Assembly (NCBI RefSeq): GCF_001971705.1 | Contig: NZ_CP019327.1 | Span: 62,001-126,000 of the forward strand | Reading direction: 5' to 3' | Source: Natronorubrum daqingense | GTDB lineage: Archaea; Halobacteriota; Halobacteria; Halobacteriales; Natrialbaceae | DNA: 64,000 nucleotides | Shown here: one piece after another, positions 12,908 to 16,584 of the stretch | Layout: the number at the start of each line of letters is the position of its first letter | Position numbering within the stretch: the stretch's first letter is position 1 | Notes under the pieces: generated by a model | The model's database searches: none | What the model was told of the DNA's origin: nothing | What the model saw: the letters and a program-made list of their open reading frames with translations, nothing else | Translations under genes and position numbers: made by a program

Positions 12908-14260
12908 TCAGCCGAAGACGGCGAACGAGACGACGAGGAGTGCACAGATTATCGCTCCAGAGAGCGTCGCGAGGAAGTTTACCCCCTGATTTCCGAGCAC
13001 CGTCCCCTCGAGCGTCGCTCCCAGCAGACTGTCGACGGTCATCCCGACGATGCCGGCGGTGACGATGATGACGGCACCGACGACGGTGACCTCGGGAAAG
13101 AGGAGGTAGGAGATGCCGGCGACGACCACTGCGCCGGCGATACCGGCGACTTCACCCTGCCAGGTGACGCCGCCGTCGGTGCCCGGTTCGACGGGCTCGA
13201 GGGTCGTGATCAGTCGGGGCGTCTCGAAGACGCTGCCGATCTCGCTCGAGAGGGTGTCGCTCATGGCCGTCGCCACAGAGCCGGCAAAGGCGAACAGAAA
13301 CAGCGTCGGTTCGGGGTCTCCGGGCACGAGCGAGGCCGAACTGGCAGCGTAGCCGAGGACGGCGATGATCGCGACCGCTGCGTTCCCGAGGACGTTCCCG
13401 CTGCCGCGTGCGCCGTCGTTCGCTTCGGCGACGCCCATCTCCGCTTTCTCTTCGTACCGGAACTTCGAGGAGAGGCCGCCGATCGCGAAAAAGGAGATCA
13501 AGACGACGAACCAGCCGTACCCGCCGAGGACGATCGTCAATAATCCGAGCAACACGCCGGTGAGCATCCCCGCGATGGAAGCCGTCTTGAGGGCGTAAGA
13601 GGCGTAGCCGAGGGCTGCGGTAATTGCGAGTGCGAGGGCGATTTCGCCGACCGTGAGCGAGAGTGCTGGCTCGAGTTCGGCGAGCAGCCAACCCAGGAGG
13701 CCAACCGAGAGCATGACGATCGGGTCGTCGCGTGCGAGGAAGATGTCGCGTAACAGTGAAGCGAGGAGCGCGCCGCTCGCGCCGAGAAAGACCATCGTCG
13801 GGGCGCTCGAGCCGATCGTTTCCTGAACGCCGCTTTCAGCGGTGAGTGCGTACGTAACGGCCTGTCCGGCGACGGAACCACCGGTCGAGACCAGGCAGAA
13901 GACGGCTACGGGGACGATGGTGTGGTCGGTTCGGCGTCGAGTGAGTTGCTCTGCGACGTTGCCGTAGCCGATGAGCAACACGGTGGCGACGAAGATGACG
14001 ACCGACATCGACGTCGTAATCGAAATGAGTCCGAGCGTCACGGCCGCGAGAACGAAGGTGATGAGTCCGTACAGCCGTCCGTCCTCGTAATCACCCGGGT
14101 ACGCGAGGAGGTCGAAGAGCGGCCCGTCGGTGACGGCGAACGCACCCAAAATGACCGTGGCTGCGATCGCAGCGCCAACCCACGGGCCGCCGACCGGGAC
14201 GGCGAGGGCGAGCGTACAAAGGAGTGCAAACGCACCTGCCCGCCGAACGGCTGCTGTCAC
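12908..14260 (-). CDS. DUF92 integral membrane protein (possible prenyl-phosphate kinase)
   Basis: A 450-residue membrane protein with about 12 helices. The C-terminal half carries the DUF92 signature: the GGLSSKFRYEEKAEMGVAEA loop, then RGSGNVLGNAA, then FAFAGSVATAMSDTLSSEIG, then TDGGVTWQGEVAG. DUF92 includes plant/cyanobacterial VTE6, a phytyl-phosphate kinase, so archaeal members may phosphorylate prenyl phosphates. That is inference. The position next to two cis-prenyltransferase-family genes (14467-15072 and 15628-16584) supports a lipid-carrier role. The N-terminal half resembles a separate hydrophobic domain. ATG at 14260. Confidence 0.85.
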   Translation of the reverse strand: MTAAVRRAGAFALLCTLALAVPVGGPWVGAAIAATVILGAFAVTDGPLFDLLAYPGDYEDGRLYGLITFVLAAVTLGLISITTSMSVVIFVATVLLIGYGNVAEQLTRRRTDHTIVPVAVFCLVSTGGSVAGQAVTYALTAESGVQETIGSSAPTMVFLGASGALLASLLRDIFLARDDPIVMLSVGLLGWLLAELEPALSLTVGEIALALAITAALGYASYALKTASIAGMLTGVLLGLLTIVLGGYGWFVVLISFFAIGGLSSKFRYEEKAEMGVAEANDGARGSGNVLGNAAVAIIAVLGYAASSASLVPGDPEPTLFLFAFAGSVATAMSDTLSSEIGSVFETPRLITTLEPVEPGTDGGVTWQGEVAGIAGAVVVAGISYLLFPEVTVVGAVIIVTAGIVGMTVDSLLGATLEGTVLGNQGVNFLATLSGAIICALLVVSFAVFG

Positions 14261-14466: not shown

Positions 14467-15072
14467 GTGGGAGTGTACGAACAGTATCTGTCGCTTCGCA
14501 TTCGCCGCCACGAGGGTGAGCCGCCGGACCACATCGCCCTCGTCCTCACCGAACGGGACTTGCTCGAGCGCGGAGCGTACGAGACGCTGACCGACTGTTT
14601 CGGCTGGGCGTTCGAGTACGCCTCGCAGGTGACGGTGTACGTGAGCGTTCTCGACACGGCTGCCGTTCCGGCGTTGCGACGAGAACTCGAGACGATCGAG
14701 GCACCGCAACCGGTTGCCGTTCGCGGACCGGACGACCGGACGCGCGCCGACGCGCCGATTCGGATCGGGATCGGCCTCGGGGGCAAACACGAGTTCACCA
14801 GCGCCGTCAGGACGCTCGCGACGCGGGTCGAAGATGGCGAACTCGAGCCCGACGAGATCGACGACGAGCAGGTCGAAGAACACCTGATCTTTCCCTCCGA
14901 ACCCGACCTCGTCATCAAAACCGGTGCCGAGCGACTCTCCGATTTCATGATCTGGCAATCGGTGTACTCGGAGTTGTACTTCACCGACGTCAACTGGCGG
15001 GACCTCCGCAAACGAGACTTCTTGCGTGCCGTTCGAGAGTACTGCAATCGCTCTCGACGGTTCGGTCGATAG
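14467..15072 (+). CDS. cis-Prenyltransferase-family protein, NgBR-like (catalytic Asp lost)
   Basis: A 201-residue relative of undecaprenyl diphosphate synthase. The second half aligns well: DLVIKTGAERLSDFMIWQ (147-164), YSELYFTDVNW, and a C-terminal RSRRFG ending at residue 200, the RxG motif needed for activity. The N-terminal diphosphate-binding motif (DGN-RxA) is missing; the matching region reads LVLTERDLLERG (26-37). The protein is also about 50 residues shorter than active enzymes. This combination is characteristic of the non-catalytic subunit (NgBR/Nus1) of heteromeric cis-prenyltransferases. The partner candidate is at 15628-16584. GTG start inferred from promoter spacing. Confidence 0.8.
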   Translation: MGVYEQYLSLRIRRHEGEPPDHIALVLTERDLLERGAYETLTDCFGWAFEYASQVTVYVSVLDTAAVPALRRELETIEAPQPVAVRGPDDRTRADAPIRIGIGLGGKHEFTSAVRTLATRVEDGELEPDEIDDEQVEEHLIFPSEPDLVIKTGAERLSDFMIWQSVYSELYFTDVNWRDLRKRDFLRAVREYCNRSRRFGR

Positions 15073-15082
15073 GAAACGTCGG

Positions 15083-15457
15083 TTACCGATCTACTCCTGT
15101 GCGCGCCGGTGTCTCGACGGTTTCCACTACCACACCGAGTGGATTCTCGAGCCCGACGATCGGCCCGTCGACGGACAACTCCTCGCCCTGTAATTCGTAG
15201 CTGAGAACACCATAATCCTCGAGTTTTGGCAGTATCTCGTGGACGAGTGACACGCGTGCACGCTCCAATGAGACACCGTCGAGACGCGCCATTCCCGACG
15301 CGAGAGACTCGAGTGTGAGCGTCGGCTCGGCCCTCGAGAGGAGATAGATGCTGATCCGCGTCCGACCGGTTGCGAGGATGGAGTACGCCGTCTCGACGGA
15401 CAGATCGGTCACCCGTGCAAACCTGTCGATGTCGATACGAATGTGGGGTGATGACAT
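15083..15457 (-). CDS. DUF7344-like winged-helix protein
   Basis: A 124-residue haloarchaeal protein. Residues ~20-95 read like the DUF7344 fold: a helix SVETAYSILATGRTRISIYLL, then SLERARVSLVHEILPKLEDYGVLSYE ending in a wing. No catalytic residues are seen. It is probably DNA-binding or a signalling adaptor. It lies between the two cis-prenyltransferase-family genes, head-on to the first (10 nt between stops). ATG at 15457. Confidence 0.65.
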   Translation of the reverse strand: MSSPHIRIDIDRFARVTDLSVETAYSILATGRTRISIYLLSRAEPTLTLESLASGMARLDGVSLERARVSLVHEILPKLEDYGVLSYELQGEELSVDGPIVGLENPLGVVVETVETPARTGVDR

Positions 15458-15627
15458 GGTTACTGATGCACGAATGACAACTATAGCTCTTGTGGAACAA
15501 TGCTGTCACGTCGAGAATAATACTACTGCGAAAATGCCGACTGAAGCGGCTCGTACGGGTGCTGTAACGGTTTCCCGATAATCACTCCCCGGAGCAGCGA
15601 CCACCGGTAAAGAACCACGACAGCCGC

Positions 15628-16584
15628 TCAGTCCGCGGCCTGTCCGCTCGAGTCGAGTCCGTCGGCGTGAGTGCTCTCGGTCGTCTCGAGCTCTTCCGGA
15701 TCGGGTTGCTCGCCGGAGGGCAGCGAATCGCGGAATCGTTCGACGACCGATTTCGCTTCGACGAGTTCGGGATCGCTGACGGCTCCGAGGAGGGCGATGG
15801 CGCGTCGCGCACGGGTTCGTCGCCAGGACTCCTCGCGGTGCTCGTAGGTCCGGATTCCGCGAAGGAAGTCCGCCTTGGAGAACTCCGGCCAGTAGGGAGC
15901 ACAGAAGAAGACTGCCGCTTCGTTTCCGTTGGCGTGCCACGGCAGGAAGTTCGAGGTCCGTTCGTCCCCGCCCGTTCGGATGATCAAGTCGACGTCGCGA
16001 ACCGGGCGGTCGTAGAGTCGGTTTTCGATCGTCTCGACGGTGATCTCTCCGGGCTCGAGCCCCGCGCGCTCGACGTCCGTTGCGACGCCCTGAACCGCCT
16101 CGAGCAGTTGTGACCGGCCGCCGTAGGCGAGGGCGATGTTGAGAACGAACTGATCGTAGCTTCGGGTTCGGCGTTCGGCGTACTCGACGGCGTCGCGGAC
16201 GCGTTCGGGGAGGCGTTCGACCTCGCCGAGGGCGCGAATTTGGACGCCGTTATCGTGAACGCGGTCGGCGTCGGCGAACTCGCGGAGTTTCTCACAGAGC
16301 AGGTCGAACAGCGCCTCGTTTTCCGCTTCCGGCCGGTCGAAGTTCTCCGTCGAGAACGTGTACAGCGTGAGCTCCTCGACGCCGATTTCCTGACACCACT
16401 CGAGGACCTGTTCGGTCGTCTGGACGCCTTCGCGGTGGCCGTCGGTCGCGTCGTCGCCCTTCCGACGGGCGTACCGTCTGTTCCCGTCTTGAATAACTGC
16501 AACGTGCGTCGGCGCGCCGGAAACCTCTCTCGAGAGCACCTCCTCGTAGACTGCATCGACGCGTTGCCGGAGCCAGCGCTTCAT
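15628..16584 (-). CDS. uppS: cis-Prenyltransferase catalytic subunit (UppS/DHDDS family)
   Basis: Condenses isopentenyl diphosphate units in cis to build the polyprenyl (dolichyl-type) carrier for glycosylation. The 318-residue protein has the active-site QDGNRRYARR (32-41, catalytic Asp33), YTFSTENF, and the IPP-binding RTGGDERTSNFLPW near 205-218. Typical homodimeric enzymes end with RRFG near here. This one continues YEHREESWRRTRARRAI with no RxG, and then has a ~70-residue acidic tail. The missing RxG is supplied by the neighbour at 14467-15072. ATG at 16584. Confidence 0.93.
   Translation of the reverse strand: MKRWLRQRVDAVYEEVLSREVSGAPTHVAVIQDGNRRYARRKGDDATDGHREGVQTTEQVLEWCQEIGVEELTLYTFSTENFDRPEAENEALFDLLCEKLREFADADRVHDNGVQIRALGEVERLPERVRDAVEYAERRTRSYDQFVLNIALAYGGRSQLLEAVQGVATDVERAGLEPGEITVETIENRLYDRPVRDVDLIIRTGGDERTSNFLPWHANGNEAAVFFCAPYWPEFSKADFLRGIRTYEHREESWRRTRARRAIALLGAVSDPELVEAKSVVERFRDSLPSGEQPDPEELETTESTHADGLDSSGQAAD

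Follow-up and report, generated by a model that had tools for sequence, protein, structure and literature searches.

We identified two neighbouring genes in the Natronorubrum daqingense window (the whole stretch of 64,000 nucleotides analysed here) that very probably encode the two subunits of one heteromeric cis-prenyltransferase (cPT); its product would be the polyprenyl diphosphate from which the dolichyl phosphate glycan carrier is derived. An extension of the heteromeric cPT from Methanosarcina to haloarchaea, and to the phylum as a whole, is well supported. Haloarchaea are a standard system for archaeal N-glycosylation; in a literature search that mostly covered papers outside subscription, we found no paper on the two-gene nature of the haloarchaeal dolichyl-chain synthase. 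If the assignment holds, the cPT of a whole archaeal phylum would be a two-subunit enzyme, each of the two genes would be testable in Haloferax volcanii, where HVO_2318 is uppS, and the pair could serve as a model, soluble and split by nature, of the human DHDDS/NgBR complex, in which mutation of the RxG motif causes a congenital glycosylation disorder.

Two cPT genes with complementary motifs

The two reading frames, named at these positions by a sequence-only reading of the same DNA, are both open there, and their start positions match those of aligned orthologues (orthologue starts MGLYDRYL and MxxWLR). The catalytic (DHDDS-like) subunit (15628-16584, reverse strand) is a protein of 318 aa with a full-domain match to PF01255 (Pfam; profile positions 1-216, 229.6 bits); the non-catalytic (NgBR-like) subunit, or partner (14467-15072, forward strand), has 201 aa and a GTG start, and matches only the C-terminal half of the same profile (positions 115-219, 90.6 bits). 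By general family models, both genes come out as uppS-type enzymes, and the whole genome has no other PF01255 genes. The genes are convergent, with 555 bp between them; this interval holds a small DUF7344 gene (PF24035; 15083-15457, reverse strand), which is not part of the enzyme and occurs in just 6 of 60 other haloarchaeal loci.

The catalytic protein carries, as had been read from the sequence, both DGNRR and RTGGDERTSNFLPW. The former, the catalytic and allylic-phosphate motif (residues 33-37; 16474-16488, reverse strand), is invariant in 40/40 haloarchaeal sequences, and DGNxR is matched by 175 of the 176 catalytic relatives in all fetched loci; the latter (RTGG..SNFLPW, residues 203-216, on the IPP side; 15937-15978, reverse strand) is nearly invariant in the haloarchaeal alignment. 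The C-terminal tail reads YEHREESWRRTRARRA and contains no RxG, again as described before; in the predicted structure, the place of the RxG tail is taken by a C-terminal helical extension (residues 251-300; 15685-15834, reverse strand). None of the 62 catalytic proteins in a sampled 127-sequence alignment has an RxG in register. RxG-like triplets do occur in some catalytic tails (for example, L094, L100, L258, and L260), and these were rejected because they do not align with the position of the genuine RxG.

The partner shows the reverse pattern. At the position of DGN it reads LTERDLLERG, it retains KTGAERLSDF, and it ends in RSRRFGR, all of which agrees with the sequence-only reading. Its C-terminal RxG is Arg-Phe-Gly (residues 198-200; 15058-15066, forward strand) and is kept across relatives; the segment KTGAERLSDFMIW (14917-14955, forward strand), the counterpart of the catalytic RTGG..SNFLPW, does not vary at most of its positions across 40 sequences from haloarchaea. 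Among the partners of all fetched loci, 171/174 have RxG and 3/174 have KxG at the C-terminus, the three (L144, L145, and L150) ending in KFG; DGN is found in 0/58 partners of the sampled alignment. Mean identity among partners, phylum-wide, is 77% over residues 146-201 vs 37% over residues 22-95. Conservation thus falls on the portion that, in cPTs, holds the subunit contact together with the tail, and the allylic-substrate half is the one that has been lost. The split extends to a highly diverged lineage (f20; L250 and L251), in which the partner has 164-168 aa and the RRFG ending is still there. With 174 partners and 176 catalytic sequences compared, the complementary split of motifs between the two cPT-family proteins is far beyond chance.

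The AlphaFold2 (AF2) model of the partner (pLDDT 85) has the cPT fold over its whole length, and no NUS1 chain is among its top 50 fold matches (Foldseek). For the catalytic model (pLDDT 69), human DHDDS chains take the first six places among the fold matches, with ~300 aligned columns; the alignment spans the C-terminal helical extension, a region that is modelled with low confidence (pLDDT about 55), with a helix-turn-helix predicted at residues 237-268/274-285.

Distribution, arrangement, and ancestry

Strict co-occurrence of the two genes, which the sequence-only reading had put forward as a check, holds: the partner is present in 292 of the 292 haloarchaeal genomes sampled (76 genera; search threshold E <= 1e-15, with borderline cases then resolved), rather than being absent from most of them. 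At least two PF01255 genes, and usually exactly two, are found in 291 of these genomes; exactly two are found in 60/61 relatives of the same order, where, among the matches listed, one gene is of the full-profile type and the other of the C-terminal type. A phylum-wide sample of 296 genomes contains 293 with at least two PF01255 genes, one (fragmented) with a single gene, and two with none. One of the two genes is missing in G072 and G415, both fragmented assemblies, and the fragmented genome G183 has a frame-broken copy of the partner. Absence of the partner from some haloarchaea was considered and rejected, as the weakest cases reflect a contig break (G235), in-frame insertions (G072 and G132), or the frame-broken copy of G183. 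The complementary motif split holds throughout Halobacteriota, the phylum to which the genome searches were restricted; of the 80 loci retained from a scan of the genome collection, every one came from Halobacteriota.

Some haloarchaea have additional cPT genes. A third, divergent full-length gene (103 bits) is present in one genome (G002:C1:478925-479599), four matches each are found in G194 and G225, and G068 has two catalytic copies.

In archaea, co-transcription is the rule for genes whose products belong to a common enzyme. Here, 76 of the 77 loci with both genes, from methanogens to haloarchaea, have them in convergent orientation and one has them in tandem; since convergent genes do not share one transcript, an operon of the two subunits is ruled out. 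In 17 of the 60 fetched haloarchaeal loci, a stretch of about 5 kb does not include the partner. The convergent subunit pair is conserved phylum-wide (L034-L093 and L124-L233), and the 3′-ends of the two genes overlap at times.

A maximum-likelihood tree was built from 127 C-terminal domain sequences over 101 columns; its archaeal members come from Halobacteriota. The 58 partners form one clade (bootstrap 84) and the 62 catalytic proteins another (bootstrap 84), and the two clades group as sisters (97), with bacterial UppS and the MM_0014-type enzymes outside them. Two sister clades fit one duplication before the radiation of the phylum, and the tree thus suggests a single duplication followed by complementary loss before Halobacteriota radiated. 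A wider scenario, in which the split arose once before Halobacteriota radiated, the eukaryotic DHDDS/NgBR pair was inherited from this archaeal heteromer and did not arise independently, and the DHDDS-type C-terminal extension was already archaeal, is possible but doubtful.

Both subunits are absent from two genomes of one genus (G298 and G306, family f18; assemblies 91% complete), which also lack STT3/AglB and retain trans-prenyltransferases; STT3/AglB is present in 6/6 comparison genomes. From the gene content of G298 and G306, this genus appears to have lost its N-glycan carrier pathway altogether.

Comparison with known cPTs and proposed mechanism

Within the same phylum, MM_0618/MM_1083 of Methanosarcina mazei show the same motif split as the haloarchaeal pair, and they constitute a heteromeric cPT producing C45-50 chains, according to the account of Emi et al. 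(2019) given in PMC8131916. We compared the pair with the cPT genes of a Methanosarcina-type genome (G401), which has three: one DGN-type, one RxG-type, and one of the MM_0014/MA1831 type, the last with a TLGG ending and E-values of 1e-135 to 1e-132 to the solved MM_0014/MA1831 structures. Since the third gene is thereby accounted for, the haloarchaeal pair would, by elimination, correspond to MM_0618/MM_1083. The arrangement differs, as the pair is far apart in the Methanosarcina-type genome but adjacent in N. daqingense. The MM_0014/MA1831-type enzymes are also cPT-family proteins without RxG, but they form a separate clade, have the TLGG ending that the catalytic proteins of the haloarchaeal pair lack, act as homodimers with short products, and are absent from the N. 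daqingense genome.

Human DHDDS and NgBR (NUS1) resemble the pair in that the catalytic subunit has DGN but no RxG and the partner has RxG but no DGN. NgBR has a long N-terminal region carrying a membrane anchor, whereas the haloarchaeal partner (201 aa) starts at the cPT domain and has no such region; the eukaryotic enzyme also makes longer products. In the human complex, the RxG tail of NgBR passes over the subunit interface and enters the active site of DHDDS, a change of the RxG arginine to histidine, R290H, lowers activity, and DHDDS alone is weakly active (PMC7573591). Bacterial UppS (for example, that of E. coli) shares the family, the fold, and the RRFG ending with the partner, whose C-terminal half aligns closely with it; the bacterial homodimer, however, has DGN and RxG on one chain, whereas haloarchaea split them over two proteins. 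The partner has a full-length profile match to NUS1 (1.6e-4), but it matches bacterial UppS more strongly (2e-29). The earlier description of the partner as NgBR-like stands as far as its probable mode of action is concerned, but it leaves orthology to NgBR unproven, as sequence and fold are nearer to bacterial UppS.

In the proposed mechanism, the S1 site for the allylic substrate, including DGNRR and the tunnel for the chain, would come from the 318-aa protein, as would the main residues for IPP. What remains of the 201-aa protein after loss of its S1 half, namely the interface-forming segment of the family and the C-terminal RxG tail, would be its contribution, the tail extending over to the catalytic subunit and completing the IPP/Mg (S2) site there. 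A catalytic homodimer would thus lack the tail and a partner homodimer the S1 site, while a heterodimer would have one complete site, in keeping with the logic of the human complex. The two haloarchaeal proteins would accordingly act as a single enzyme, and synthesis of the dolichyl carrier would depend on both genes, as the sequence-only reading proposed; the heteromer is supported by the phylum-wide motif split and by the heteromeric state reported in PMC8131916 for the M. mazei counterparts. The dolichyl end product is likewise the expected one, dolichol phosphate being the glycan carrier in Haloferax (PMC3871713).

Alternative explanations and the neighbouring DUF92 gene

The absence of RxG alone is no proof of inactivity, since MM_0014 is an active homodimer and DHDDS alone retains weak activity. 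The DGN protein could accordingly be a self-sufficient homodimeric cPT like MM_0014, which has no RxG either (PMC8131916), with the RxG paralogue having a role of its own, perhaps in regulation or in lipid binding; that the two genes are not co-transcribed would fit this reading too. We nonetheless consider it quite unlikely: all 174 partners retain RxG or KxG though the rest of their active site is lost, which is best explained if the tail serves the site of another subunit, and no haloarchaeal genome of the 292 is without the partner. In addition, the MM_0014 types stand apart from the catalytic proteins both in the tree and in their TLGG ending, and the M. mazei counterparts form a heteromer by the account in PMC8131916. 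Another reading takes the small gene for a functionless paralogue in decay, resembling a pseudogene, for which one could cite its shortened length and the poor conservation of its N-terminal half across the phylum; yet the gene is intact in essentially all genomes and its C-terminal residues are near-invariant across the phylum, and such universal and constrained retention contradicts a pseudogene, an explanation that we find scarcely credible.

The question of product is separate from that of subunits. The products of cPTs differ, as the MM_0014-type enzymes illustrate (PMC8131916), so that the complex might form but mainly make a cis-prenyl product other than the dolichyl carrier. Against this, the pair is the sole source of cPT here and in nearly all haloarchaeal genomes, the known glycan carrier of Haloferax is dolichol phosphate (PMC3871713), the heteromer of M. 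mazei agrees with the C50 carrier present in this species, and cPT and AglB are jointly missing in the one genus represented by G298 and G306; we regard a different main product as highly improbable. The reading of the pair as a heteromeric cPT of the dolichyl carrier pathway is the one that we retain.

The neighbourhood of the partner gene agrees with a carrier-lipid role of the cPT pair. A gene for a DUF92 membrane protein (12908-14260, reverse strand), which may be a kinase in this lipid pathway, lies next to the partner gene; PF01940 is matched at residues 213-436, and the N-terminal half of the protein has no Pfam match. The DUF92 family has been predicted to carry out a kinase step linked to uppS (PMC5898192), and the DUF92 protein encoded here may act on the product of this cPT. 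The DUF92 gene adjoins the partner gene in most of those haloarchaeal loci among L034-L093 that hold the partner.
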